Below are positions 9,057 to 28,256 of a stretch of DNA of 64,000 bases, in pieces. The DNA is from Methyloceanibacter sp. wino2. Lineage in GTDB: Bacteria > Pseudomonadota > Alphaproteobacteria > Rhizobiales > Methyloligellaceae. The stretch is from assembly GCF_003071365.1 (NCBI RefSeq), contig NZ_CP028960.1:1426001-1490000 (forward strand), written 5' to 3'. Both the position numbers and the translations under genes were made by a program. The notes below the pieces were generated by a model. It made no database searches. It was not told the DNA's origin and was given only the letters and a program-made list of their open reading frames with translations. How positions within the stretch are numbered: the first letter of the stretch is position 1; each line of letters opens with the position of its first letter.

Positions 9057-9712
9057 GAGGCTTTCTTATGCTCTGGCGCCGTGCCCCGCGCCGCTTGAAC
9101 AAATTGCGCGATAAGGCCTGGATCCTTCTCGCCCGGCGCGGTTTCCACCCCGGACGAGACGTCGACCAGCGACGCGCCCGACAGGCGGATCGCTTCGGCG
9201 ACGTTGGATGCAGCGAGCCCGCCCGACAGCGCGAACGGCGCGGATGCGCCTTCGAGGATCGCCCAGTCGAAACGCAGACCGTTGCCGCCGGGCAAGTCGG
9301 CGCCGGCCGGTGCCTTGGCATCGAACAGGATCCGGTCCGCGATACCCTCGTAGCGCGCGGCGGCGTTCACGTCGGCGCGCTCCGCAACCGGAACGGCCTT
9401 GAAAACGGTGAGGCCCGTCGTCGCCTTGATGGCGGCAGCGCGCTCAGGCGTCTCGGAGCCGTGAAGCTGCAGCACATCCGGACGTACATCGGCGGCAATC
9501 GTGTCGATCAGCGCATCGTCGGGATCGACGAGCACCGCAACCGTCTTGACCCGCCCGCGCGCGGCCGTCGCGAGACGCGCTGCATCCGCGGGCGACAGAT
9601 TGCGCGGGCTCTTCGCGAAGAAGACCAAGCCGACGAAATCGGCGCCTGCAGCAATCGCGGCATCGAGACTGGCGGGCGTCCGCACACCACAAATTTTAAC
9701 TTCGACCGTCAC
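9053..9712 (-). CDS. trpF: Phosphoribosylanthranilate isomerase
   Basis: 219 residues, a TIM barrel. The signature strands [21 protein letters not shown] and FALSGGL contain the catalytic Cys and Asp positions of the family. It catalyses the Amadori rearrangement of PRA to CdRP in tryptophan synthesis. It heads the trpFBA group and overlaps trpB by 4 bases. The next gene upstream on this strand ends 109 bases away, so a promoter for the trp genes may lie at 9713-9821. No leader peptide rich in Trp codons was seen there. Confidence 0.95.
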
Positions 9713-9821
9713 GGGAGCTCTTCAAAAAGGTTGTGACACGGGGGCCGCCGGACCGGGGCCCCGAGCGGCGCTCACCCTATGAAATCCAGGCGCTTAAGTC
9801 CATCGCACCGCAACATAGAGG

Positions 9822-10040
9822 TTACCGGGCGACCCGGCTGCGCCAGCGATAGGCCGCGACGCCAGCCCAGATTGCCTCGAGGACACCGAAGGGCCAAGCA
9901 CCCTGCAGGAAGCCATACGCCGACCCGAGGAGACACGCAAACGCGAACGCTAGGATGAACCAGGGGCTGCGGTCCTCGAGCGCGTAGGTGACCAGCATCG
10001 CGGTCACGGCAATGAGACCGAAAACGGTCAAGGGGTCCAT
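9822..10040 (-). CDS. Small inner-membrane protein of unknown function
   Basis: 72 residues, with two hydrophobic segments (about residues 4-20 and 28-62, the second possibly a hairpin), no Cys, and a positively charged C-terminus (RWRSRVAR). I do not recognise a named family. It lies 10 bases downstream of the LapA-domain gene in the same direction, probably as part of the ihfB-lapA transcript. Confidence 0.65.
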   Translation of the reverse strand: MDPLTVFGLIAVTAMLVTYALEDRSPWFILAFAFACLLGSAYGFLQGAWPFGVLEAIWAGVAAYRWRSRVAR

Positions 10041-10050
10041 GGGGAAAGGC

Positions 10051-10395
10051 CTATTGGGCGGGAAGCTGCGGCCGCTGCTGCGCGGTGTTGGCCGATTCCA
10101 GCTCTCGTTCCAGCCGGTCCGCCTGCCGGCGCCAGTCGCGTGCTTCGCGCGCCTCGGCCCGGGCCGTCCGGCGCCATTTGCCCTGGTTGATCCAGGAAGC
10201 GAAGCCTCCGATCAGGAGGCCGAGCGCAAAGGCGCAGAGGAGGAACAGAAACAGCGGGGCCTCGACCATATAGCCCTGGTCGCCGCCGAACGGATCGAGA
10301 ATGAGTTCGGCCGGTCCACGATTGACGACGGCTAGCGCGATCAGCGCCAGGCCGAGCGGGATGATCACAAGTCCCAGGACGAGCTTCCGCGTCAC
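10051..10395 (-). CDS. LapA-domain (DUF1049) inner-membrane protein
   Basis: About 114 residues from a GTG at 10395, which has a GGGGAG Shine-Dalgarno sequence 6 bases ahead. The frame continues upstream to another GTG at 10428, which has none. Two transmembrane helices (LVLGLVIIPLGLALIALAVV and a second around residues 45-65) are followed by a basic, coiled-coil-like tail rich in Arg and Glu. This matches the lipopolysaccharide-assembly protein A domain, whose E. coli member helps regulate LPS synthesis. It follows ihfB, a common neighbour in alphaproteobacteria. Confidence 0.75.
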   Translation of the reverse strand: MTRKLVLGLVIIPLGLALIALAVVNRGPAELILDPFGGDQGYMVEAPLFLFLLCAFALGLLIGGFASWINQGKWRRTARAEAREARDWRRQADRLERELESANTAQQRPQLPAQ

Positions 10396-10440
10396 GTCTC
10401 GCTCCCCAAGCGGCCCGTTCGGGGCCACACGCCGTCAGCG

Positions 10441-10740
10441 CTATGCGCCACCCTGGTTATCATCCGGGTTGAGGCGCTCGCGCAATTCCTTGCCGGTCTT
10501 GAAGAAGGGCACAAACTTGTCCTCGACGAATACCGTGTCACCCGTCCGCGGGTTACGGCCCTGCCGCGCCGCGCGATGCTTGACGGTGAAGGCGCCGAAG
10601 CCGCGCAACTCGACACGATCCCCGCGCGACAGCGCACCGGTGATCTCATCGAGGATGATATTGATGATGCGCTCAACATCACGATGGAACAAATGCGGAT
10701 TGGCGGCGGCCACCCGCTGAATCAACTCGGATTTTATCAT
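10441..10740 (-). CDS. ihfB: Integration host factor subunit beta
   Basis: 99 residues from the ATG at 10740 (MIKSELI). The longer frame to 10785 adds 15 unlikely residues. It is an HU/IHF-family DNA-bending protein with the conserved arm [20 protein letters not shown] and the core [14 protein letters not shown]. The beta rather than HU assignment rests on the [15 protein letters not shown] ending and on the location after rpsA-sppA, where ihfB is usually found. IHF bends DNA at sigma-54 promoters and in phage-type recombination. Confidence 0.9.
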
Positions 10741-10791
10741 TGGCACGCCCCAAAGGGACCGCAGCCCTGTACCGCCGCGATCCAAGCCCCA

Positions 10792-11754
10792 CTAATTGGA
10801 CGCAGGGTGCCAAACAGAGACCAGACCGTCAAGTTCAAGGACCGCACTGGCCTCGTCCAACAGCCCTGCAAACTTGCTGCCGGACAAGCCGAACATTGCT
10901 GCGATGGACTGTGTCGCAAACCCGAGAAAACCCGTGTCCTCGGTCGGGGGCTTCCACTGCCGCACCCGCAAACCCGGCTGAATACCGCGTTCCGTCGCAA
11001 GCCACGTGCGCGCTGCGAGTTCGTCTCCGATCTGGTCCACCAGCTTGTAGTCGACGGCCTGACGACCCGAATAGATGCGTCCTTCGGTGAGCCCCGGAAT
11101 TGTGTCCGGCGTGATTTTGCGGCGCGCCTTCACGAGGCCGACGAACCACTCCATGGCATCGTCGACCATCTCTTCGGTCACCTTGCGGGCTTCTTCCGTG
11201 GTCGGCTCAAACGGGCTTGGCACCGCCTTCAGGGTTCCGCTCTTCACGTCCTCGAACTGGATGCCGAGACTCTTCATCAACTCGGTCACGTTGGCCCATT
11301 GGAAAATCACGCCGACCGAGCCCGTGATCGTGTTGCCGTAGACGAAAATCCGGTCCGAGGCGAGGGCGACGATATAGGCGGCGGAGGTCGCCAGGGTCCC
11401 GCAGGTCGCGACCACGGGCTTCTTCTTCGACAGGCGCCGGATGGCGTCGTAGAGCGCTTCGCCGCCCGTCGTCGTCCCGCCGGGGCTGTTGACCTCGATG
11501 ATCACCGCCTTGACCTGGTCAGCCTTACGGACCCTATCGATCAGATTGATCATCTTGCGATCGTTGGTGATCACGCCATCGATGGTGATCCGCGCCACAT
11601 GGGGCAGGATTCCGCCCGTGCCGCTGGAGTCCGAGTCGCTCATGACGAGCGAGCCCACGAACAGCACGGCCAGCAGCACCGCAGCGATGCGCCAGATGGA
11701 AACACGCCGCTTGAGGCGGCGCCGTTCGACTACGCGTTCTGCGTCAAGGCTCAT
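10792..11754 (-). CDS. sppA: Signal peptide peptidase SppA, short (36-kDa) type
   Basis: 320 residues: an Arg-rich cytoplasmic start, one membrane anchor near residues 22-40, then a ClpP/crotonase-fold peptidase domain. VNSPGGT is the oxyanion-hole motif. The Ser nucleophile is in LATSAAYIVA, and the Lys base is probably in KSGTLKAVPSPFEPT. It degrades cleaved signal peptides at the membrane. It lies between rpsA and ihfB, separated from rpsA by an intrinsic terminator. Confidence 0.92.
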   Translation of the reverse strand: MSLDAERVVERRRLKRRVSIWRIAAVLLAVLFVGSLVMSDSDSSGTGGILPHVARITIDGVITNDRKMINLIDRVRKADQVKAVIIEVNSPGGTTTGGEALYDAIRRLSKKKPVVATCGTLATSAAYIVALASDRIFVYGNTITGSVGVIFQWANVTELMKSLGIQFEDVKSGTLKAVPSPFEPTTEEARKVTEEMVDDAMEWFVGLVKARRKITPDTIPGLTEGRIYSGRQAVDYKLVDQIGDELAARTWLATERGIQPGLRVRQWKPPTEDTGFLGFATQSIAAMFGLSGSKFAGLLDEASAVLELDGLVSVWHPASN

Positions 11755-11787
11755 AAGGGTGCGACTCGAGAGTTGTAACTCAGGCTC

Positions 11788-11828
11788 AAATGAAACACGG
11801 GCCGCAGTCTAATCGACCGCAGCCCGTG
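11788..11828 (-). terminator. Rho-independent terminator after rpsA
   Basis: The arms CACGGGC (11796-11802) and GCCCGTG (11822-11828) pair, and the inner bases extend this to a 14-bp stem with two G-U pairs and a 5-base loop. On the minus strand it is followed by TTTCATTT. It lies 38 bases past the rpsA stop and just before the sppA start. Confidence 0.75.
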
Positions 11829-11865
11829 AGACATCGAAAATCAGGCAGCCGTGAGGCGTGCCGGA

Positions 11866-13722
11866 CTATTCCTCCGCGGAGGCCTCGTCCGCACTCTCGC
11901 TGTCGGCCGCAGCCTTGGCAGCGCGCTTGGTCTTGGCCTTCGACGCAGCCTTGGCCTTCGGAGCCTCTTCGGCGTCGGCCGCAGCGTCCGCCTCGGCCGG
12001 CTCCTCGTCCGCATCCTTGGCCTTGTTCAAGGCCGCTCCGAGAATGTCGCCGAGCGAGGCGCCGGAGTCGGTCGAACCGTACTGGGCCACCGCTTCCTTC
12101 TCCTCGGCGATCTCGAGCGCCTTGATGGAGGCGGAGATCTTGCGCGTCTTCTGATCCACCTGGGTCACGACGGCATCGAACTTCTCGCCCACGCCGAAGC
12201 GGTCGGGACGCTGCTCGGAGCGATCGCGGGAAAGATCGGAACGGCGGATGAAGGTCGTGAGGTCATGGTCGAGAAGCTTGGCCTCGATCCCATTGTCCTT
12301 AACGGCCGTCACTTCGCAGGTCACGCGGGCACCCTTGCCGAGCTTGTCGGAGGAAGCCGCACCCTCGAACGGGTCAGCCGCAAGCTGCTTGATGCCGAGG
12401 CTGATGCGCTCCTTCTCGGAGTCTGCCTCAAGGACAACGGCCTTCACCGTGTCGCCCTTCTTGTAGTCTTTGAGAGCTTCCTCGCCAGACTTGGACCAGT
12501 CCAGATCGGACAGATGGACCATGCCGTCGATACCGCCATCGAGGCCGACAAACAGGCCGAACTCGGTGATGTTGCGGATCTGACCTTCAATCTCGGTCCC
12601 CGGCTGGTATGCCGCCGCGAACGCGACCCACGGGTTCTCCTGGGTCTGCTTGAGACCGAGCGAAATGCGGCGCTTGTCCGGATCGACTTCCAGAACCTGC
12701 ACCTCGACCTCCTGGCTCGTGGAGATGATTTTGCCGGGGTGAATGTTCTTCTTGGTCCAGCTCATCTCGGAAACGTGGATCAGACCTTCGACGCCGGGCT
12801 CCAGCTCCACGAACGCACCGTAATCGGTAATGTTCGTGACCGTGCCCTTGAAGCGCGCATCGACCGGGTACTTGGCGGCTATGCCTTCCCACGGATCGGC
12901 CTCGAGCTGCTTGATGCCAAGGCTGATGCGCTGCGTATCCGGATTGATGCGGATGATCTGCACCTTCACCGTGTCGCCGACATTGACGATCTCGCTCGGG
13001 TGGTTGACCCGGCGCCACGCCATGTCCGTGACGTGAAGCAGGCCGTCGATACCGCCAAGATCGATAAAGGCACCGTAATCGGTGATGTTCTTGACGACAC
13101 CGTCGACCACTTCGCCTTCCTTGAGACGGGCGACAATCTCGCCACGCTTCTCGGCGCGGCTCTCTTCCAGAACCGAGCGGCGGGATACGACGATATTGCC
13201 GCGGCGGCGGTCCATCTTGAGAATCTGGAAGGGCTGCGGGGAATTCATGAGCGGGCCGACATCGCGGATCGGACGGATGTCGACCTGGCTGCCCGGAAGG
13301 AAGGCCACGGCGCCGTCGAGATCGACGGTGAAGCCGCCCTTGACGCGATTGAATATCTGGCCCTCGACCTTCTCGTTGTTCTTGTACTTCTCCTCGAGAC
13401 GGACCCAGCTCTCTTCGCGGCGGGCCTTCTCGCGGGACAGGACTGCCTCGCCGGCAGCATTCTCGACACGCTCGAGATAGACGTCGACTTCGTCGCCTTC
13501 GACAAGCGTGGAGGGGGCGCCAGGGACGCCGAATTCCTTGAGGGGGACGCGGCCTTCGGTCTTAAGGCCCACATCGATGATCGCCACATCTTTCTCGATG
13601 CTGACGACAGTTCCTTTGACCACACTGCCTTCCTGGAGCGCTGCGCCGGTCAGAGATTCTTCGAGAAGCGCTGCAAACTCGTCGTGGCTCGGCTGGCTGA
13701 TGCTGGTCTGCGGTTCGGACAT
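11866..13722 (-). CDS. rpsA: 30S ribosomal protein S1
   Basis: 618 residues with six S1/OB-fold repeats. Recurrent signatures such as ITDYGAFVELEPGVEGLIHVSE and RRISLGLKQ mark each repeat. S1 recruits mRNA to the 30S subunit and is essential. The protein is longer than the roughly 570 residues usual in alphaproteobacteria, because about the last 55 residues are a low-complexity Ala/Glu/Lys tail. It is followed by its own intrinsic terminator; cmk lies 194 bases upstream on the same strand. Confidence 0.97.
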   Translation of the reverse strand: MSEPQTSISQPSHDEFAALLEESLTGAALQEGSVVKGTVVSIEKDVAIIDVGLKTEGRVPLKEFGVPGAPSTLVEGDEVDVYLERVENAAGEAVLSREKARREESWVRLEEKYKNNEKVEGQIFNRVKGGFTVDLDGAVAFLPGSQVDIRPIRDVGPLMNSPQPFQILKMDRRRGNIVVSRRSVLEESRAEKRGEIVARLKEGEVVDGVVKNITDYGAFIDLGGIDGLLHVTDMAWRRVNHPSEIVNVGDTVKVQIIRINPDTQRISLGIKQLEADPWEGIAAKYPVDARFKGTVTNITDYGAFVELEPGVEGLIHVSEMSWTKKNIHPGKIISTSQEVEVQVLEVDPDKRRISLGLKQTQENPWVAFAAAYQPGTEIEGQIRNITEFGLFVGLDGGIDGMVHLSDLDWSKSGEEALKDYKKGDTVKAVVLEADSEKERISLGIKQLAADPFEGAASSDKLGKGARVTCEVTAVKDNGIEAKLLDHDLTTFIRRSDLSRDRSEQRPDRFGVGEKFDAVVTQVDQKTRKISASIKALEIAEEKEAVAQYGSTDSGASLGDILGAALNKAKDADEEPAEADAAADAEEAPKAKAASKAKTKRAAKAAADSESADEASAEE

Positions 13723-16522: not shown

Positions 16523-16598
16523 GGGGCCATAGCTCAGTTGGGAGAGCGCGTGAATGGCATTCACGAGGTCGTCGGTTCGATCCCGTCTGGCTCCACCA
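16523..16598 (+). tRNA. tRNA-Ala (anticodon GGC)
   Basis: 76 bases including the encoded CCA. The acceptor arms GGGGCCA and TGGCTCC pair, with one G-T pair. The D-arm is GCTCAGTTGGGAGAGC. The anticodon stem CGTGA/TCACG encloses the loop ATGGCAT with anticodon GGC, and the T-arm contains GGTTCGATCC. The 3' half, from 16550, is the left attachment site of the integrated element: the tRNA remains intact because the element brought an identical 3' end. Confidence 0.95.
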
Positions 16599-16599
16599 A
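16550..16599 (+). repeat. attL, left 50-bp attachment repeat
   Basis: Identical over 50 bases to 28207-28256. It begins in the anticodon stem of tRNA-Ala and ends one base past the CCA. The bases before it (C here, T at the right copy) and after it (A here, T at the right copy) differ, which fixes the limits. Confidence 0.93.
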
Positions 16600-17427: not shown

Positions 17428-18297
17428 TTGCCAAATGGTGACCTAAGGCAGCAGGGAGGGATTTGCAATCCTTTCTGCTTCTACGATGTCCTGGGGGTTT
17501 GGTTGCAGCATCCTGTCTCGCCTCGTCAACTCGCATGGCTGAGCGGTCATTGCGGCGCGCCGCTGCAAGGTCCGCCATTTGTCGTCAACAGGACGGCACG
17601 GTTCAGCTCGGCCTACCGGCAATATCTCCGGCTGCTCCAGCCGCAAGCGGCAGTCCTCGCGTGGCTTGCGAAGCGTGACGACGCGCTGCTCACCTACGTC
17701 GAGGTCGCGCAGGACGTCATCATGCCGGGCGAGGATGAGCTTTGTGCGTTCGCGGAACAGTTCAATCGGTCGTTCGTTCAGCACCGGCACCGCTCGCGGC
17801 AGATGACGATTTTCGAAAACGGCAACGCCAGGTCGGGCGCTCGCACGCCCGGCGTCACGTTCCAATGGTACAGCGACAGGCACAGCAAACTGACGGGCGA
17901 AGTCGACTGCTTCCATTTCGAAGCCCGCGTCTCAGGATCGAAGGCGATCAAGCGGCATGGCTTCACGTGCGGCAATCTAAGTCAGGTCGATCTCGAGGAT
18001 TGGTTCGCCCGCCTGTGGTCGTCGAAAGCCATCGGCCTCTACCGCAAGGACCTGGAGCGCCTAGGACGCTGGTTAGACAATCGGCGCAAACGAACACGAC
18101 GGCGCGCGTCCATCATCACGGACAGCGGCTACAACGAAGACCTCTCTCGGGGGTGCATCGCCTACCGCGCTGTCGGCAGCACCGCGCAAGGTCTAATCGA
18201 CAGTTTCGGTAGGGGACCTTTTGTATACACGATTAAGCCGACTTTTGATGAACACGCACATGAACACGTCCCCGAATTGGTGGAGAAGGTTGCATGA
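17428..18297 (+). CDS. Hypothetical protein, possible replication initiator
   Basis: Up to 289 residues; the first start is a TTG at 17428, and the real one may lie somewhat downstream. Features seen: LLTYVEVAQDVIMP in the middle, VTFQWYSDRHSKLTGE, FHFEARVSGSKAIKRHG, and a basic stretch RRKRTRRRAS near residue 225. The pattern of an acidic strand followed by a His-x-Glu strand recalls single-strand replication initiators. I cannot confirm catalytic Tyr or HUH residues, so that reading is a guess from pattern and position (early gene after the AlpA-like regulator). It overlaps the next gene by 4 bases (ATGA). Confidence 0.55.
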   Translation: MPNGDLRQQGGICNPFCFYDVLGVWLQHPVSPRQLAWLSGHCGAPLQGPPFVVNRTARFSSAYRQYLRLLQPQAAVLAWLAKRDDALLTYVEVAQDVIMPGEDELCAFAEQFNRSFVQHRHRSRQMTIFENGNARSGARTPGVTFQWYSDRHSKLTGEVDCFHFEARVSGSKAIKRHGFTCGNLSQVDLEDWFARLWSSKAIGLYRKDLERLGRWLDNRRKRTRRRASIITDSGYNEDLSRGCIAYRAVGSTAQGLIDSFGRGPFVYTIKPTFDEHAHEHVPELVEKVA

Positions 18298-18668
18298 GTA
18301 GTTCGCATGTTCCCGGATGTGAAAAGGCGATCAAGGTTGTCCTGACCTATGAACCTGATCTGCCTACGGATCAGTTGATGCAAAGGCTACATGCCATTGG
18401 CTATAAGCCAACAGCCTTCGCCGTTTCAACAGTCCGTTCCTCCTTTAGACAGGACCTCCGCATTCTCTCCGAGGAAGGTCTACTCCACACGTTGCCCCCG
18501 AAGCATGAACCTCCAGCATGGTTGTCACGTGCGCAATCGGCAGCGGTGGAAGCCAAAACCAAATCGTCATCTCGTGGTCGGCGCAGCCTCAGACACAGAC
18601 AGGCGATGCGCAAAGGCAAGGGGAAGCCGAAACCCTATCGGAACTGGTGGCGGGAGGACGATGGGTGA
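18294..18668 (+). CDS. Hypothetical basic protein
   Basis: 124 residues whose ATG overlaps the stop of the upstream gene (ATGA). The N-terminal 70 residues contain AIGYKPTAFAVSTVRSSFR and QDLRILSEEGLL, compatible with a small winged-helix-like DNA-binding domain. The C-terminal third is very basic (RGRRSLRHRQAMRKGKGKPK). No family recognised. Coupling to the upstream gene suggests a shared role, perhaps in replication. Confidence 0.55.
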   Translation: MSSSHVPGCEKAIKVVLTYEPDLPTDQLMQRLHAIGYKPTAFAVSTVRSSFRQDLRILSEEGLLHTLPPKHEPPAWLSRAQSAAVEAKTKSSSRGRRSLRHRQAMRKGKGKPKPYRNWWREDDG

Positions 18669-18808
18669 ACGGCGGTAGCAAAGCCGTCGCCGTCATGAGG
18701 CTGTACGGCATCGGAGAAGTCCCCTCGCCACAGCCCGTCCCCTCACCACCAAGGCACACGGCGTCAGTATGATCGCCAGGACCCCGCCGTCACGCACAGG
18801 AGTGGAGA

Positions 18809-19126
18809 ATGAGACCATGTCGAAGCAGAAGTTCGTTTACCGAGGAAGCGGAGCAGAGATTGCACGCCGCGGTCGCCAAGCGGCTCACCTCGCTGAATGG
18901 AGACGAGATAGCGACACAGCACGAGACCGCGAAGCTGGAGAGCATCGTCGGGCACTTGCAGAGGCTCGGGCTAAAAGAGCATCAGATCGTCAAACACATT
19001 GAACTGATGCCGAAGCCGAAGCCGCTACCGAAGATGAAGATTGATAACCGGACGGGTAAGCCAATCGAGGTCACAAGATTGAGATCGTTCAAGAGACGTG
19101 CGTCGTCATCGTGCGCAGACGGGTGA
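18809..19126 (+). CDS. Hypothetical protein
   Basis: 105 residues from an ATG at 18809 with AGGAG about 7 bases ahead. The middle FTEEAEQRLHAAVAKRLTSL and IVGHLQRLGLKEHQIVKHIE segments are amphipathic helices, and PKPKPLPKMKIDNRTGKPI follows. An overlapping frame starting at 18769 is Arg-rich and looks like a shadow. The function is unknown. Confidence 0.5.
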   Translation: MRPCRSRSSFTEEAEQRLHAAVAKRLTSLNGDEIATQHETAKLESIVGHLQRLGLKEHQIVKHIELMPKPKPLPKMKIDNRTGKPIEVTRLRSFKRRASSSCADG

Positions 19127-19624
19127 GCAAAAGAGACGATCAAGCGCGCAAACGAGGCAATCCACATGACCGCAAAATCGCATCTCGCTTAATATGGTCA
19201 CGAGGACAGCACGCCAGCCATTCCCCCTCGCCATATCGCAATCGTGGTTCCTGTCGCTGTCGCAATCGTGGTACCGGCCATATGCAGCGAATGGGTATAT
19301 GCCGTTAGTTTATGCGCTACCTACCGAAACCCAGTAGTAGGCACATGCTGTCAGTTTATGGGTGCACCCCTTGGATCGTGGTGATGGGTACCCCACAAGC
19401 AAACCCCTCCCTGCATCGAATTAGTTGATGCACGCGCGCAGCATCCACGAGTAACGCGTCGAAACGCCTACGATGGACAATTGCGCATGTGGATGTGATT
19501 TCGTTTCACGTCCCATTCCCCCGGACACCCTTCTAAACAGGTAGGTACTCACCAAAGGGATTGCGTCCCTGCAAGGTCAATGCAATTTCGCTGCCTCGAA
19601 CAGGCCGTTTTCGAGCGTGTGGTG
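19127..19624. other. Repeat-bearing gap before terS (candidate packaging, replication or control site)
   Basis: No convincing gene lies here. TCGCAATCGTGGT occurs twice (19236-19248 and 19260-19272, 24 bases apart), with its core ATCGTGGT a third time at 19375-19382. ATGCYGTYAGTTTATGSG occurs twice (19299-19316 and 19345-19362, 46 bases apart). In many phages cos/pac or operator repeats lie directly before terS, so this is a reasonable place for such a site, but its role is inferred. Confidence 0.45.
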
Positions 19625-20071
19625 ATGAGACCGAAAAAGAAGTCAGGTCGTCCAACGACCAAAGACATTGCATCCAGTAAATTGCGCACGCGGCTAAAGG
19701 CTGGCCGCGATATTCTCCCATTAGTTGACGGCCGCTCTGTTATCGCTCGCCGTTACCGCGAACTCCAAGAAGACATGGCGAATGATCTAGGCGGCTGGGA
19801 CACGCTGTCCGAAGCCCAGCGTCAGTTGGTGCGATCATGCACGGGCCTCACGATCCTGCGAGAGAACCTCGACGCCAAGTCGGTCATGGGCGAACCCGTT
19901 GATGTTGGCGACTACACCCGATTGACGGGTGCCCTTGGTCGCACGCTGCGTCTCCTCGGGATAGACCGCAAGGCCAAGGACGTGACGCCTCCCGATCCGC
20001 TCTCCTATGCGCGCCGACGCTCCCGCAATGCAGACGACATTGAGGAGGTGGACGATGAAAGCCCGTCCTAA
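19625..20071 (+). CDS. Putative terminase small subunit
   Basis: 148 residues from the ATG at 19625 (163 if the ATG at 19580 is used, which has AAGG ahead). A basic start (MRPKKKSGRP) is followed by helices around RDILPLVDGRSVIARRYREL and LSEAQRQLVRSCTGL, and by an acidic tail (DDIEEVDDESPS). This shape (basic N-terminal DNA-binding part, helical oligomerisation core, acidic C-terminus) and the position 105 bases before the large terminase support TerS. No sequence motif proves it. Confidence 0.6.
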   Translation: MRPKKKSGRPTTKDIASSKLRTRLKAGRDILPLVDGRSVIARRYRELQEDMANDLGGWDTLSEAQRQLVRSCTGLTILRENLDAKSVMGEPVDVGDYTRLTGALGRTLRLLGIDRKAKDVTPPDPLSYARRRSRNADDIEEVDDESPS

Positions 20072-20176
20072 CCGTCCTGGCGGTCGGATGCAGAGTGGTT
20101 GTTACTCCTCTGTGTGCCTCGGTACGCCTGTTGGCCAACGTCGCTGTATCGCCCTCTCACCAAGGGAGGGCTCGCG

Positions 20177-21643
20177 GTGAACATTCTCGACGCCGTAGCC
20201 GACCGCAAGGTGTTTGCGAGCCTCTTCCGTGACAAGAGCACGTGGACAGCATGGTTCGCATTCCTCGCCGCACTATTCGGGCTACCGATGGACCGCGACA
20301 TGCGGCGCATCTACAGGCAGTGCACCAACCGCAGCGACAGGCCACGTCAACAAGCACAAGAGGCATGGCTGGTCATCGGGAGACGCGGGGGCAAGTCGTT
20401 CGTGCTGGCGTTGATCGCATGCTTCCTAGCCTGCTTCCGCGATTGGCGTCCCTATCTAGGCCCCGGCGAACGTGCCACCGTGATGGTGATTGCCGCCGAC
20501 CGTAAGCAGGCCAAGACGATCATTCGATACGTCAAGGGCATCCTGCACGCCGTCCCCATGTTGAAAGCGTGTGTGGAAGGCGAGACGCAGGAGTCGGTCA
20601 ACCTCAAGCGTTCGGTGACCATCGAGGTCCACAGTTGCAGCTTCCGCACCGTCCGTGGCTACACCATCGTCGCCGCGCTATGTGACGAGATCGCGTTCTG
20701 GCGTTCCGACGACAGCGCCAATCCCGACAGTGAAGTCATTGCGGCTATCCGTCCGGCTATGGCGACCATTCCCGACGGGCTGTTGCTCTGCGCATCCTCG
20801 CCATACGCAAGACGTGGCGTCCTGTGGGACACGTATCAGCGGCACTTCGGCAAGGACGGCGACAGCGTGTTGGTGTGGCAAGCACCGACCAAGCGGATGA
20901 ACCCGGCCATCCGGCAATCGTTCCTTGACGACGAGTACGACAAGGACCCGGTCAGTGCCGCCGCCGAGTACGGTGCAGAGTTCCGCACGGACATCGAATC
21001 CTTCGTGTCCCGCGAAGCCGTAGACGCATGCGTGTCGGTCGGCGTGCACGAACGGCCTTACGACGCGCGCTTTAACTATGCCGCCTTCGTCGACCCATCC
21101 GGTGGTTCGTCCGACAGCTTCACTTTGGGTATCGGACACAACGAAGACGACCGCCGCGTCCTCGATTGTCTGCGCGAGGTGCGGCCACCGTTCTCGCCGT
21201 CCGACGTGGTTGCAGAGTTTGCCCGCACGTTGAAAGCGTACCGCATCACGAAGGTGAACGGCGACCGCTACGCCGGAGAGTGGCCCGTTGAACAGTTCGA
21301 CAAGTGCGGCATCGAGTACGTGCAGAACGCGCGTCCGAAGTCAGACATCTACCGCGATGCGCTGCCGCTGTTGAACTCGGGGCAGGTGCAGCTCCTCGAG
21401 CACAAGAAGCTATTCAACCAAATCGTCGGCCTTGAAAGACGCACGGCGCGTGGTGGCCGTGACAGCATCGACCATGCACCAGGCGCGCATGACGACTGCG
21501 CCAACGCTGCACTCGGCGTCCTCGTGGAGCTTGAACACGGCGGCTACGACATCTCCAGGATGGGCAAAGGTATGCCGAAGTTGCTCGGCGGAATCGCTGG
21601 CGATCAAGGCCTTGGTTTGGGACTCGGGAGAACGTTCAAATGA
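20177..21643 (+). CDS. Phage terminase large subunit (ATPase-nuclease)
   Basis: 488 residues from a GTG at 20177, which has AGGGAGG 7 bases ahead; the frame extends upstream without a better start. The Walker A motif GRRGGKS is at about residues 68-74, and the Walker B motif VAALCDE ends at Asp170-Glu171. Then comes an RNase H-like nuclease with FVDPSGG (Asp306), a second Asp in VNGDRYAGEW and a late HDDCANA. All the ATPase and nuclease acids needed for DNA packaging appear intact. It would cut and translocate DNA into a procapsid, but no capsid genes follow. Its stop overlaps the next ATG (ATGA). Confidence 0.87.
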   Translation: MNILDAVADRKVFASLFRDKSTWTAWFAFLAALFGLPMDRDMRRIYRQCTNRSDRPRQQAQEAWLVIGRRGGKSFVLALIACFLACFRDWRPYLGPGERATVMVIAADRKQAKTIIRYVKGILHAVPMLKACVEGETQESVNLKRSVTIEVHSCSFRTVRGYTIVAALCDEIAFWRSDDSANPDSEVIAAIRPAMATIPDGLLLCASSPYARRGVLWDTYQRHFGKDGDSVLVWQAPTKRMNPAIRQSFLDDEYDKDPVSAAAEYGAEFRTDIESFVSREAVDACVSVGVHERPYDARFNYAAFVDPSGGSSDSFTLGIGHNEDDRRVLDCLREVRPPFSPSDVVAEFARTLKAYRITKVNGDRYAGEWPVEQFDKCGIEYVQNARPKSDIYRDALPLLNSGQVQLLEHKKLFNQIVGLERRTARGGRDSIDHAPGAHDDCANAALGVLVELEHGGYDISRMGKGMPKLLGGIAGDQGLGLGLGRTFK

Positions 21644-22169: not shown

Positions 22170-22466
22170 ATGCAGAAACACGACAACTACGAGATCGTTC
22201 TCGACGAACACGGCAACAAGGTCATGCGCGTCCGCATGACGGCGATGGACGGCGACCGTGACGGCCAGCGCATCCTTCACCGTCCCGGCGCTGTCTCGGG
22301 AGATGACATTCCCGAAGGCGTGACCGCCGCCTATGAGCAAAACGAAACTGCCCTTGCCAATGCGTGGAAGCACGGTGACGACGCACCGACCGTCCCGAAG
22401 GTAACGGGCGAACCTTACGAGGACCACCGTCTGTGGCTCTCGAATGCATGGAGGAGTAACGAGTAA
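22170..22466 (+). CDS. Hypothetical protein
   Basis: 98 residues with ACGGAGA ahead of the ATG. The N-terminus YEIVLDEHGNKVMRVRMTAMD is strand-rich and the remainder is acidic. No family recognised. Its TAA shares one base with the ATG of the following coiled-coil gene (TAATG), so the two are coupled. Confidence 0.55.
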   Translation: MQKHDNYEIVLDEHGNKVMRVRMTAMDGDRDGQRILHRPGAVSGDDIPEGVTAAYEQNETALANAWKHGDDAPTVPKVTGEPYEDHRLWLSNAWRSNE

Positions 22467-23341
22467 TGCTGCCCATCGAAGCCAAATCCAAACTGGACGA
22501 CCTCACGCAGGAAGCCGCGGACAGCGACGCGCTGCTACGGTCGATCCCCGGTCGTATCGACAACATTGGTCGCCAGATCATCCAACTGGCGCAACGCCGG
22601 AGCACGTTCGATGAACGTGACAAGCGGTACGAAGAACTGCGCCAGGAGATTGACGCCGCGCAGCGCAAGCAGGAGCATTTGCGTGAAGTCGCGGGACGGC
22701 GCAAGGCGCGTGCCGTCAACGACCTCGACACCCTCAAGGCCATCAATGTGTGGATGGCGCGGTTGCCGCAGGGGACCAAGCTCGTCTCCGTCGAGACGCC
22801 GCTTCCGAACGTCACCGACCTGCAAGCCGCAATCACGTCAACGCGTGATGAGATCGGTACTCTCAAGCAGCGCATCCGAGAGATGAAGGGCACGCACCTG
22901 CCGAAAGATGAACTGCGGGACAAGGCGGCGTACTACGTCAAGCGGTTGGGTGCGGCGGCAAAGCCGGTGCTGGAAGGTACGGCGCGGGACAAGAAGTTCG
23001 GCCTGTCGTTCGACACGCGGGACCCGCTGTCCATCGTCGCCGCCGTTGCGCCGGATACGCTCCTCGAAAGTCTGGAGCGCATGATTGACGAACAGGTGCC
23101 CGACGACGGCTTGCCCGCCGACGAGCGCAAGGCCCAGGTGGCCGAATTGGAAAGGCTGCTCCTTGAGTGTGAACGCTCCGAGGAGGCGCTTGTGATCGAA
23201 GCCCGGTCACGTGGCATGGACGTGCTGCGGCGGCCTCGCGCCGATGCACGCGCCATTCTGGGTGTCGCTGTCTCGGACAAGACGGCAGCGAAGCCGAAGC
23301 CTGTCGCGGTCGAAGAGACGCCGCTGGAGATGGCCGGATGA
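22466..23341 (+). CDS. Coiled-coil protein of unknown function
   Basis: 291 residues. Heptad-like segments cover roughly residues 10-85 (DNIGRQIIQLAQRRSTF, YEELRQEIDAAQRKQEHLRE) and 115-145 (AAITSTRDEIGTLKQRIREM). The C-terminal part has another helical pair (ERKAQVAELERLLLECERSEE). No catalytic motif was seen. In a full prophage the portal or a scaffold would be expected near here; a scaffolding-like or capsid-redirecting role is only speculation from shape and position. Confidence 0.6.
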   Translation: MLPIEAKSKLDDLTQEAADSDALLRSIPGRIDNIGRQIIQLAQRRSTFDERDKRYEELRQEIDAAQRKQEHLREVAGRRKARAVNDLDTLKAINVWMARLPQGTKLVSVETPLPNVTDLQAAITSTRDEIGTLKQRIREMKGTHLPKDELRDKAAYYVKRLGAAAKPVLEGTARDKKFGLSFDTRDPLSIVAAVAPDTLLESLERMIDEQVPDDGLPADERKAQVAELERLLLECERSEEALVIEARSRGMDVLRRPRADARAILGVAVSDKTAAKPKPVAVEETPLEMAG

Positions 23342-24080: not shown

Positions 24081-24773
24081 TCAGTCCGCATTTTCGAAGG
24101 TGATAGCGAATGGCAGGTGCAGCGTCTCTTTGTAGGCCTTCGCGAGGCCCTCTACCAGCTTGCGGTATGTTTCCGAGTCCTCAGAAGCTTCGGTGCGAAG
24201 CTGTTCGATCAGCGAGTTGACTTGTATCATTTGGGGCCTGAGCCCCGCATATTCGTCGTGAGGCAATTCAACCCAACCGCTGTCACCCTCCACGCGCACA
24301 GGAGGAACCTTGGCAATCAAGTCAAAGATGAGCCGATTGAGTGTGCTCAGTGACTCCACGAAATGGTAGTGCCGCGGCTCCAGCAGGAGCGTTTCGTTCA
24401 TCAGCTTGGCGTTCTTCAGCTCGAGCAGCGTAGCCTTCTCGTCGGGTGAAAAGTGAAAATGAGTGAGGTTGCTGGAGAACGGTTTGAAGAAACGCCACGG
24501 ATCGTCAACCAAGCCCCTTTGATTTGCCTCCGCGAACTGTTCCTCGAAAGCACGTCGTGACTGGGCGTAGTTGCCGTGCATGTCGCGCACTTTGAAGAGC
24601 AGCGATGTGGCTAATGCTTGCTTTTCGCGGAACCTATCTTCGTCGCGCTGCTTGCGCTGAGCCCTCAACGCGAGCGCTTGAGCAAAGAGTGCCATGAGGC
24701 CGCCCACGACAGCGCCTACGATCGCGGCCCAAAACTCCGTCGATACAGCGATCTGACACAATGGTTTAAACAA
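24081..24773 (-). CDS. Membrane-anchored helical protein of unknown function (cargo)
   Basis: 230 residues. One N-terminal transmembrane helix (about 13-33, FWAAIVGAVVGGLMALFAQAL) is followed by a charged helix (RAQRKQRDEDRFREKQALA) and a long helical cytoplasmic part. Base composition is visibly lower in GC than the surrounding genes. It lies 12 bases downstream of the 380-aa gene in the same direction, forming a separate leftward unit between the terminase cluster and the integrase, a place where satellites usually carry cargo. The function is unknown. Confidence 0.65.
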   Translation of the reverse strand: MFKPLCQIAVSTEFWAAIVGAVVGGLMALFAQALALRAQRKQRDEDRFREKQALATSLLFKVRDMHGNYAQSRRAFEEQFAEANQRGLVDDPWRFFKPFSSNLTHFHFSPDEKATLLELKNAKLMNETLLLEPRHYHFVESLSTLNRLIFDLIAKVPPVRVEGDSGWVELPHDEYAGLRPQMIQVNSLIEQLRTEASEDSETYRKLVEGLAKAYKETLHLPFAITFENAD

Positions 24774-24785
24774 GCCGCGCCTCCC

Positions 24786-25928
24786 CTATCCCGTGACTGC
24801 TTCTCGAAACGCCATGAACGGTTCACGCGATGGGACGCGATAATTCGAGGGGAAACGGAGCAAGATGTCATCGTCGCGGTCCGGCGCAGCTATGAACGTC
24901 CCTTGCTCAGTTCGGTAACGCGTGCCGTCTTTCGAGATGCTGTTCGCCCACTGTGCTAGCCACGATAGGTTGTGTGGTGCGAACGCTGCCGACAGCGCAT
25001 CGAGACGGTCAATCTCACCGATGACACCGTCCACGATTTCGGTAAGGCCCTTTAGCCTGTTCCGGAGCATCTCTAGGTACTCGTGGTCGTCACCCAACTG
25101 TCGGAGCCCTGAGATAGCCCGCTTCTCGTACTCGCTGACGCGCAAGCCAATTGGTTCGGTGCCTCCACCAAAGAAGTCCTGGCCTTCGAGCATGCCCAAC
25201 TGGGTTTGTATGGTCGTGTAGATGGGATTGAGTTGCTTCTTCGGCTCGTCCTTTTGGCCACCCATGGCTTGGAGATACCGCTTGGCGGCTTGGGTACGGA
25301 TAGGAGGGCCTTCTTCGTTGGCCTTCTCCGCGCGGCGCTGTTCAGCCATGAGATCGCGAACGCGTTCATCGCGGAACAACATGCCGTCGCGTTCGTAAAT
25401 CAGGTCATCGATATCCGACGCCAATCCGGGAAGGCGTCTGCGAAAATCACTCTTTAGGTTCTGGTACAGGCCAATGGCGGGCGCCTGCCTTAGCTCCGCA
25501 AGTGACGCCAGGAAATTGGGGCCAGCATCGCGGGCCGCATTGCGCCGCCTCAAATAGTAAGCCGTGTCCTTGGCGAGATCGAAGTCCTTGATGAGCAGGT
25601 CGAAGTTTACGCCCCATATCTTCCTCGCGCAGTCGCGACCTACCAGGATGCGCCTACCATCGCGGTACCTCATGACGATACCGCGTTGATGGTTGTCGTA
25701 CCGGTCGTGGACGCAGCGAACTTTTTTGTCGGTGCCGCGAAGGTCGTAGAGCATCTCCACAATGGGGATTTCTTCGGTCTCGGGACGCTCTTCCACCAAG
25801 CCGGCTAACTCTGTCGGGTTGTTGGTGGTGAACTCCGTGGCCAGCAGATCTTGTTCGGTGAGTCGTGTCCAATAGCGCTCAACCGCTTGCACTGGTAGCG
25901 CTACCTCCTCTTGGGGGTCATCGCACAT
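24786..25928 (-). CDS. Hypothetical protein with a possible Cys/His metal site (cargo)
   Basis: 380 residues. Near the N-terminus, RCVHDRYDNHQRGIV and ILVGRDCARKIWG place Cys72, His74, His80 and Cys100 where they could bind a metal ion. The rest is helical, with coiled-coil-like parts (MLRNRLKGLTEIVDGVIGEI) and a C-terminal strand region. I recognise no named family. Lower GC than its surroundings suggests a separate origin. It is probably cotranscribed with the 230-aa membrane protein downstream. Confidence 0.65.
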   Translation of the reverse strand: MCDDPQEEVALPVQAVERYWTRLTEQDLLATEFTTNNPTELAGLVEERPETEEIPIVEMLYDLRGTDKKVRCVHDRYDNHQRGIVMRYRDGRRILVGRDCARKIWGVNFDLLIKDFDLAKDTAYYLRRRNAARDAGPNFLASLAELRQAPAIGLYQNLKSDFRRRLPGLASDIDDLIYERDGMLFRDERVRDLMAEQRRAEKANEEGPPIRTQAAKRYLQAMGGQKDEPKKQLNPIYTTIQTQLGMLEGQDFFGGGTEPIGLRVSEYEKRAISGLRQLGDDHEYLEMLRNRLKGLTEIVDGVIGEIDRLDALSAAFAPHNLSWLAQWANSISKDGTRYRTEQGTFIAAPDRDDDILLRFPSNYRVPSREPFMAFREAVTG

Positions 25929-26008
25929 TCTGTGCCTCGCATGTAAGGATGTTCACTCTACGTTCTACATGCTGGTTGTGCTCAAAGCAAGAGGAAGTGG
26001 CCCTGTTA

Positions 26009-26140
26009 TCAACGAGAAAGTTCGGCGAAGAGCTGCCAGAGGATGGCCCCTCCGAACGCCATACAACCAATTAGAATTGCGACGGCTACTAGGCGCAGGT
26101 CGCGATGGAATGGCGGGTCTGGTCTGTCTTCGTTGCTCAT
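26009..26140 (-). CDS. Possible 43-aa single-pass membrane protein
   Basis: An ATG at 26140 opens 43 codons ending at the TGA (26009-26011). The product has a charged start (MSNEDRPDPPFHRD), one good transmembrane helix (LVAVAILIGCMAFGGAILW) and a short tail. No clear ribosome-binding site was found. It lies 80 bases upstream of the 380-aa gene on the same strand and could be the first gene of that unit. Confidence 0.4.
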   Translation of the reverse strand: MSNEDRPDPPFHRDLRLVAVAILIGCMAFGGAILWQLFAELSR

Positions 26141-26251
26141 GACGCCAAATTAGCACGGCGGGAGAAATCAGCGCATAGGTGAACAGGAGAGCGGTGCCGT
26201 CCTCAATTGTCGGCGCGCAGGTCTGCTTAGTTTGAGGAGGAGCTTTTGACG

Positions 26252-26779
26252 ATGCCAACACCACCAAAGGGCACGAAGCGGTACAAGGAGTGGCGGCGGC
26301 GCTATGAGCCCGAGGTGGCCAAGCTGATCATCGTGGCGGAGTCGCCGCCGATCTCCGGGCTGTATCTATACAATCCCGATGGAAGCGTGAGTGAGCCACT
26401 GTTCGCCGCGTTGATGAAGGCGCTCGGACTTTCGCCGACCACGAAGGCGTCCGGGCTGCGCGCATTGCAGCAACGAGGCTGGGTGCTGGTCGACAGCACA
26501 TACGAACCCGTGAATGAACTATCCGGCACGGCGCGCAACGCTGTCATTCGCCGGGACTACCCGCTGCTTCGTGACGACCTCGCGGGACTAACACAGGGTC
26601 GGGCGGTGCCCCTCGTGCTCATCAAGGCCAATGTGTGTCGGCTTCTGGAGTCGAGCCTCGTCGCGGATGGCTTCCACGTGCTCAACGGTGGTCGAAAGAT
26701 CTACTTTCCTGCGAACGGGTGGCAGGGCGATTTTCAACGCCAGTTCGCTGACGTCTTGAGGTCGGCAGAGACCGAATAG
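26252..26779 (+). CDS. Hypothetical protein, weak resemblance to uracil-DNA-glycosylase-like proteins
   Basis: 175 residues from the ATG at 26252 (a TTG at 26246 is nearer to the GAGGAGG at 26234-26240). The motif LIIVAESPPISGLYLYN near the N-terminus resembles the first active-site loop of UDG-superfamily-like proteins of unknown role. The rest includes VLIKANVCRLLESSLVADGF. The assignment to that superfamily is tentative. It stands alone, facing the convergent integrase gene. Confidence 0.6.
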   Translation: MPTPPKGTKRYKEWRRRYEPEVAKLIIVAESPPISGLYLYNPDGSVSEPLFAALMKALGLSPTTKASGLRALQQRGWVLVDSTYEPVNELSGTARNAVIRRDYPLLRDDLAGLTQGRAVPLVLIKANVCRLLESSLVADGFHVLNGGRKIYFPANGWQGDFQRQFADVLRSAETE

Positions 26780-26833: not shown

Positions 26834-28054
26834 CTATCGGAGCAGCGCCGCGCCCTTCGCCGTCACGATGCTGGCGACATGATCGGCCCACTTTTCGAGG
26901 AGCGCCCGTTTGCGGTCCAGCGCATAGCCATGTGAGTAGCCCGCCGTCACGCCGGACCGCGCATGATTGAGCACAAGTCCCCTGTCGAAATCGTCATGCC
27001 CCTCGTTCTCGAACCACGTGGCGACGGTGTGGCGAACGGCGTGGTAGTTGAAGTCGGCCGGGGCACCCGCCTTCGTCAGTTTGCGCTGGAGCTTCGTGCC
27101 CGGGTAGTGGAAGGCAAAGTCCTCGGGGAGCCCCTTGATGATGCGTTGGGCCAGCGGCGCTAGAGGCGTCAGATACACCCGCCTCCGTTTCGCCGTCTTC
27201 TTGGACTTCGTCCGCTCGTGCGGTGTCGTCCACACGCCGTCCTTGATCTCCGATAGCGACATGCCCGCCAGTTCGCTCTTCCGCGCCGCCGTCAACAGTA
27301 GGAGCTTGATGTATGCGCCGGAGAGCAGGTCGATGTTATCCGCCGCGGTCCAGATCGCTTTCAGTTCATCGGGTGTGTAGACGCGTTCGCGTTCGCGGCC
27401 TTCGAACACGACTTCCAGATCGTTCATAATCGGCGCGTCGGCATACTTGCGGATCGGCTTCGATGCCCAGCCCCACAGCGACCTTAGCTGAACGCGGGTT
27501 ATGTTCGCCTTGTAGATGTGGCCCGCTGCCATGAATGTGTTGAGTAGCCGCTGAGCCTCTAGTGCCGTGATGCTCGAGAACGGTCGCTTGAGAAATTCGG
27601 CGCACGTCGTTTTGAGGACGCGCTGCGTCTGCTTCCAGGTGCGCTGTCGCAGCTGGGCGTACTCTTTGATGAAGAGGTCCACGACCTGCTCGTAGCTCAT
27701 GTCGGCGGCCTTTGCCTTCCGCTCCTCCTCCTCCGCCTTCCGCTCTTCCTCAATTGGATCTTTGCCGAGGCCGGCCACGCCCCGTAGCTGCTTGGTCTTG
27801 TCCCGCGCATCGCCTAGCGGCAGTTCACCGACGCGGCCAATTCGTTTCGAGACGGCCTTGCCGTCGAGGTAGTAGGTCGCGAAGAATGATCTGGTGCCCG
27901 ATGGCGACACGAGCACCGATAGGCCCAGCACGCCGCCCTCACTCCTCGAGTCGTCCCAAACGCGGTACTGCTTCGCCTTCGGTTTAAGTCGCCGGAGCGC
28001 CAAATCGGTGAACGCTTTTCGAAGTGGTGCGCGCTTCTTGGGTTTCTCCCCCAT
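26834..28054 (-). CDS. int: Tyrosine site-specific integrase
   Basis: 406 residues. The N-terminal DUF4102-type arm-binding domain (about 12-110) includes WDDSRSEGGVLGLSVLVSPSG. A charged linker (EEERKAEEEERKAKA) and a core-binding helix domain follow. In the catalytic domain R258 (TAARKSE), H338-x-x-R341 (HAVRH), H364 and the nucleophile Y373 (AGYSHG) are all present. It catalyses recombination between attP and the tRNA-Ala attB. It reads inward from the right end, with two tandem ATGCAATGC copies just upstream of its start. Confidence 0.95.
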   Translation of the reverse strand: MGEKPKKRAPLRKAFTDLALRRLKPKAKQYRVWDDSRSEGGVLGLSVLVSPSGTRSFFATYYLDGKAVSKRIGRVGELPLGDARDKTKQLRGVAGLGKDPIEEERKAEEEERKAKAADMSYEQVVDLFIKEYAQLRQRTWKQTQRVLKTTCAEFLKRPFSSITALEAQRLLNTFMAAGHIYKANITRVQLRSLWGWASKPIRKYADAPIMNDLEVVFEGRERERVYTPDELKAIWTAADNIDLLSGAYIKLLLLTAARKSELAGMSLSEIKDGVWTTPHERTKSKKTAKRRRVYLTPLAPLAQRIIKGLPEDFAFHYPGTKLQRKLTKAGAPADFNYHAVRHTVATWFENEGHDDFDRGLVLNHARSGVTAGYSHGYALDRKRALLEKWADHVASIVTAKGAALLR

Positions 28055-28206: not shown

Positions 28207-28256
28207 GTGAATGGCATTCACGAGGTCGTCGGTTCGATCCCGTCTGGCTCCACCAA
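28207..28256 (+). repeat. attR, right 50-bp attachment repeat
   Basis: Identical to 16550-16599, the 3' part of tRNA-Ala(GGC) from the anticodon stem through CCA plus one base. There is no 5' half here, so this is not a second tRNA gene. Confidence 0.93.

Follow-up and report, generated by a model that had tools for sequence, protein, structure and literature searches.

Do the genes that lie between the terminase cluster and the integrase of a small integrated element in Methyloceanibacter sp. wino2 make up an anti-phage system, or are they separate pieces of mobile cargo? The first-pass annotation of the 64,000-nt stretch of chromosome analysed here (the window) had described three minus-strand ORFs of 43, 380 and 230 aa at this place, which are indeed present (Table 1), and had likened this cargo unit, with its combination of a membrane tether and a soluble partner, to the design of abortive-infection systems. 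We slightly favour a different reading, in which the region would be the accessory end of a satellite-like element of ~11.7 kb, holding two genes that are probably translationally coupled and that function independently of each other.

The element spans ~11.66 kb and is marked at both ends by a direct repeat; the integrase gene occupies the right end and the large terminase gene (TerL) lies mid-element. TerL has relatives at 46-48% identity in four more genomes of its bacterial order, and in three related loci (L032, L033 and L034) tblastn detected counterparts of the 163-aa protein directly before TerL. The 163-aa protein has no family match; it is probably the small terminase subunit (TerS), a label derived from its position. 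The scan of the element's proteins, which took in part of the small ORFs, gave no clear match to a capsid, portal or tail family. Since attachment-site repeats, integrase and terminase are present in an element of small size that lacks a full structural gene set, the element is satellite-like, and the view of the 380- and 230-aa genes as its cargo stands: they are situated between the terminase cluster and the integrase, and their relatives occur in mobile elements. Their lower GC content is likewise confirmed, at 0.57-0.58 versus about 0.63, a modest difference shared by other parts of the element (for example 0.56-0.58 at 18001-20000). The element also encodes a 291-aa coiled-coil protein (22466-23341), whose only matches are weak ones to tape-measure proteins and SbcC/Rad50-like coiled coils. 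Two of the related loci (L032, 8200-13343; L033, 8194-13607) have related terminase genes with an integrase upstream, and in addition a tail tape-measure protein (phrog_3336, 1.2e-71; phrog_973, 2.3e-66); these loci may be satellites that encode a tape measure themselves, or what is left of prophages.

Table 1 Features of the satellite-like element and its accessory end (window coordinates).
Feature	Position	Strand	Evidence
tRNA-Ala(GGC)	16523-16598		ARAGORN
attL-like repeat, 3′ half of tRNA-Ala(GGC)	16550-16599	+	50-bp perfect direct repeat with 28207-28256
Probable small terminase subunit, 163 aa	19580-20071	+	tblastn matches in L032, L033, L034
Large terminase (TerL)	20099-21643	+	phrog_2 3.1e-25
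230-aa membrane-anchored, predicted mostly helical protein gene, TTG start	24081-24773	-	Relatives L007, L008, L022
Predicted transmembrane (N-terminal hydrophobic) segment of 230-aa protein	24666-24737	-	Maximum KD 2.17 at residue 18
Stop codon TAG of 380-aa gene (24788-24786) overlapping Shine-Dalgarno AGGGGAGG of 230-aa gene (24787-24780)	24780-24788	-	Direct reading
380-aa protein gene, distant PHROG 7003 member with predicted zinc-type motif	24786-25928	-	phrog_7003 8.5e-07
C72-x-H74-x5-H80-x19-C100 motif of 380-aa protein	25629-25715	-	Alignment of 9 sequences
43-aa hydrophobic ORF, doubtful gene	26009-26140	-	No Shine-Dalgarno; unconserved upstream of 380-aa relatives
Tyrosine integrase, Arm-DNA-bind_3 + Phage_integrase	26834-28054	-	Pfam 9.7e-11 and 1.3e-10; phrog_1 6.9e-49
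attR-like repeat, right end of element	28207-28256	+	50-bp perfect direct repeat with 16550-16599

The 380- and 230-aa genes have an operon-like layout. Their frames are 12 bp apart, GAGG lies just 5′ of the ATG of the 380-aa gene, and the 230-aa gene, which starts with TTG, is preceded by the Shine-Dalgarno-like sequence AGGGGAGG, itself overlapping the stop codon of the 380-aa gene. From this arrangement, the two genes are probably co-transcribed and translationally coupled. Because both have relatives over most of their length, Shine-Dalgarno-like sequences and a GC3 of 0.69 and 0.68, respectively, we consider them real. The third proposed gene, by contrast, fared poorly. The 43-aa ORF lacks a Shine-Dalgarno sequence, its GC3 is 0.57 and it gave no significant match in Pfam, PHROG, PADLOC or NCBIfam; tblastn against plasmids gave nothing convincing (matches at E=7 alone), and none of seven 380-aa relatives has a small hydrophobic ORF in the 500 bp before its gene. 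In its favour, only 0.07 such short hydrophobic ORFs are expected per shuffled element, and one is seen. Both as a gene and as a member of a unit it appears doubtful. On the plus strand, a 177-aa gene (26246-26779) with a strong Shine-Dalgarno sequence, GAGGAGG, diverges from the cargo; it yielded a marginal match to HTH_36 alone, and the N-terminal VAESPPISGLYLYNPDG of its product is one that we take to resemble uracil-DNA-glycosylase-like proteins.

The 380-aa protein matched no Pfam, NCBIfam or PADLOC family. It is a weak member of PHROG 7003, a phage protein family with no assigned function and a profile of 309 positions, which it matches over residues 78-192 only. The same profile is matched by all eight members of our alignment, comprising the 380-aa protein and the seven relatives scanned (best 7.6e-17); a search of the PMC literature returned no paper naming phrog_7003. 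Relatives are rare: they were found in 3 of 397 genomes of the order, its own counted, and a profile search of the class gave 5 of 385 genomes, a figure that includes its own genome and one false hit; two plasmids and one Methylobacterium contig carry more. We rejected one candidate relative (locus L013 of genome G744, E 2.2e-4), a cytochrome P450-like ORF without the motif. Searches of phages by tblastn with the 380-aa protein, the 230-aa protein or a relative found no match, and the motif part alone at E≤10 gave only chance-level matches; scans of the viral_contigs collection found no member of the 380-aa family, and PDB profile searches gave nothing significant.

A Cys2His2-like site had been noted in this protein, and C72, H74, H80 and C100 are all there. 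In an alignment of nine sequences, C72, G83, G91, G97 and C100 alone are invariant. The histidine at position 80 is found in eight of the nine and lies one residue later in the other (P0005). At position 74 the window protein has a histidine, and most of the other sequences have a cysteine. Two members found with the PHROG 7003 profile, in addition to the seven relatives scanned, keep C72, C100 and a conserved histidine. This pattern of conservation supports a predicted zinc-type motif. The 380-aa protein shares with PHROG 7003 the conserved C-[C/H]-H-C motif together with G83, G91 and G97, and differs from it in having H74 for the second cysteine and in its divergent C-terminal half. An AlphaFold model made from a two-row alignment is poor (mean pLDDT 43.7, too low to assign a fold); in the motif region, at a pLDDT of about 42-64, it places a beta-hairpin (82-87, 93-97) that leads into a helix beginning at residue 98, an arrangement that would fit a treble-clef-like finger and to which we attach little weight. 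We suggest that the protein is a cytoplasmic binding protein in which a small zinc finger, built of a knuckle, a beta-hairpin and a helix with C100 at its start, would be followed by a long helical region. Its target would probably be a nucleic acid or a phage protein, and as nothing outside the motif is invariant, it is probably not an enzyme.

For the 230-aa protein the expected membrane anchor is also evident: it has one hydrophobic segment, which is N-terminal (E13-F-W-x2-I-x-GAVVGGL). E13, F14, A17 and G20-G25 of this segment are conserved in its relatives (core E-F-x2-A-x2-GAVVGG), which come from two genomes of the order (L007, 33% identity; L008, 26-27%) and one viral contig (L022; IMGVR_UViG_3300048848_000291; 25-27%). 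When 230 genomes of the class were searched with a profile, nothing but the window's own copy was recovered. The AlphaFold model, again from two rows, is all-helical, and with a mean pLDDT of 54.5, too low for a fold, it indicates a mostly helical body at low confidence. On the viral contig the relative is located downstream of lysis-type genes, which were named by eye. The likeness to this phage accessory gene near a lysis region extends to the same N-terminal anchor, but identity is only 25-27% and no 380-aa relative is present in the record, which may be a fragment. We suggest that the 230-aa product is a protein in its own right, helical and anchored in the inner membrane, like those encoded by accessory genes of phages; it might serve in superinfection exclusion or interfere with a competing phage.

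If the two proteins worked as a conserved pair, their families should be found together. A profile of the 230-aa family found nothing in seven genome or plasmid records containing a 380-aa relative, with two known positives recovered alongside, or in two further such genomes (0/9 in total). In the reciprocal search, the 380-aa profile found no partner in three records with a 230-aa relative (0/3), its sole match, at E 0.45, being unconvincing. Few relatives are known, so that this comparison covers about a dozen genomes; the profile for the 230-aa family is shallow, with three to four rows. Within these small numbers, the two families were never together in the other genomes checked, which, by the refuting criterion set in the first-pass annotation, refutes the joint unit as a conserved system. 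A defence unit, whether of three genes or two, is also left without support by the lack of conservation of the 43-aa ORF and by the neighbours of the 380-aa relatives, which differ from locus to locus (a PIN toxin gene, an Mrr_N-like protein, a 331-aa unknown). The remark that no known system matches has held up, as the 380-, 230- and 43-aa proteins hit no family in PADLOC-DB 2.0.0 at E≤1.

These results bear directly on two-component abortive infection, whereby the zinc-motif protein would sense a phage product and trigger its membrane-anchored partner, damaging or depolarising the membrane. The probable translational coupling across a 12-bp gap fits such a scheme, as does the position of the cargo beside int, where known satellites have their defence hotspots (PMC9122126), and relatives do occur beside restriction-modification, nSTAND3 and PIN toxin genes. 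The families nonetheless do not co-occur, the pair has no PADLOC or significant NCBIfam match and the neighbours of the 380-aa relatives vary, and we regard such a two-component system as improbable. Tight coupling also fits a working pair, and to that extent it counts against independence; a so far undescribed two-gene anti-phage system, put together recently from two separate accessory families and using the PHROG 7003 zinc-motif protein as its sensor and the membrane-anchored helical protein as its effector, is in our judgement decidedly improbable.

The surroundings of the relatives are varied. In one locus (L017) an integrase, a 380-aa relative, an nSTAND3 protein (PDC-S73) and a type III methylase follow in a row. 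In another (L018) genes for an HTH_17 and a PIN_3 protein precede the 380-aa relative by 11 bp, and in a third (L014) the relative's start is overlapped by 4 bp by the gene for an Mrr_N-like protein, a weak match below the cut-off. The 230-aa relative of L019 stands 22 bp after a C5 methylase, Vsr and MvaI/BcnI nuclease series and is followed by a convergent integrase. Both families are therefore mobile-element cargo, sometimes in defence surroundings, and no homologue with an established function was found for either protein. On the other side of the L018 relative (9670-13526) there are endonuclease-like, OmpA-family and ZorA-like genes (the last at a weak E 3e-4), and OmpA-family and thermonuclease genes lie near the relative on a Sinorhizobium plasmid (L004); this neighbourhood is possibly a Zorya-like module. 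Ribonucleotide reductase genes close to two unrelated members of the PHROG 7003 family (L014, 11222-13306; L042, 9451-10719, the latter gene named by eye) were judged a coincidence, there being only these two cases. The close spacing in L018 and L014 could suggest that the 380-aa protein is an accessory of toxin-antitoxin or restriction operons, with the 230-aa gene an unrelated passenger. This is highly improbable, given that none of the genes in the window element was recognised as belonging to a toxin-antitoxin or restriction system and that several relatives stand alone (L015, L042).

A role in the life cycle of the satellite itself, for instance in controlling its excision or replication or in interfering with helper-phage packaging, rather than in defence, is somewhat unlikely for one or both genes. 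PHROG 7003 was built from phage proteins, a zinc motif would fit a regulator, and two 380-aa relatives are beside tail-type genes, one adjoining a tape-measure/lysozyme gene (L021) and one near a tail-like gene named by eye (L041). On the other hand, relatives also reside on plasmids and at chromosomal sites where no phage genes are visible (L015, L042), and neither gene was matched in the compared regions of the four same-order loci with related terminases, which makes the 380- and 230-aa genes accessory.

The reading as two independent accessory genes leaves room for a function in phage competition. In P4-like satellites, antiviral genes occupy a hotspot between psu and int (Rousset et al. 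2022, PMC9122126). The window element similarly has variable cargo between conserved satellite genes and the integrase; it differs in that it pairs int with a terminase and is not P4-like by any test run, and in that no known defence gene was recognised in its cargo. Since antiviral genes are known from the interval between satellite core genes and the integrase, a role of the cargo in phage competition is plausible by analogy.

The co-occurrence result weakens the case for a conserved membrane-plus-soluble defence pair. For PHROG 7003, a family without a known function, a conserved cysteine/histidine core is now defined. Some of its members have restriction, nSTAND or PIN-toxin genes as neighbours on mobile DNA, so that the family may reasonably be considered for a part in phage competition.
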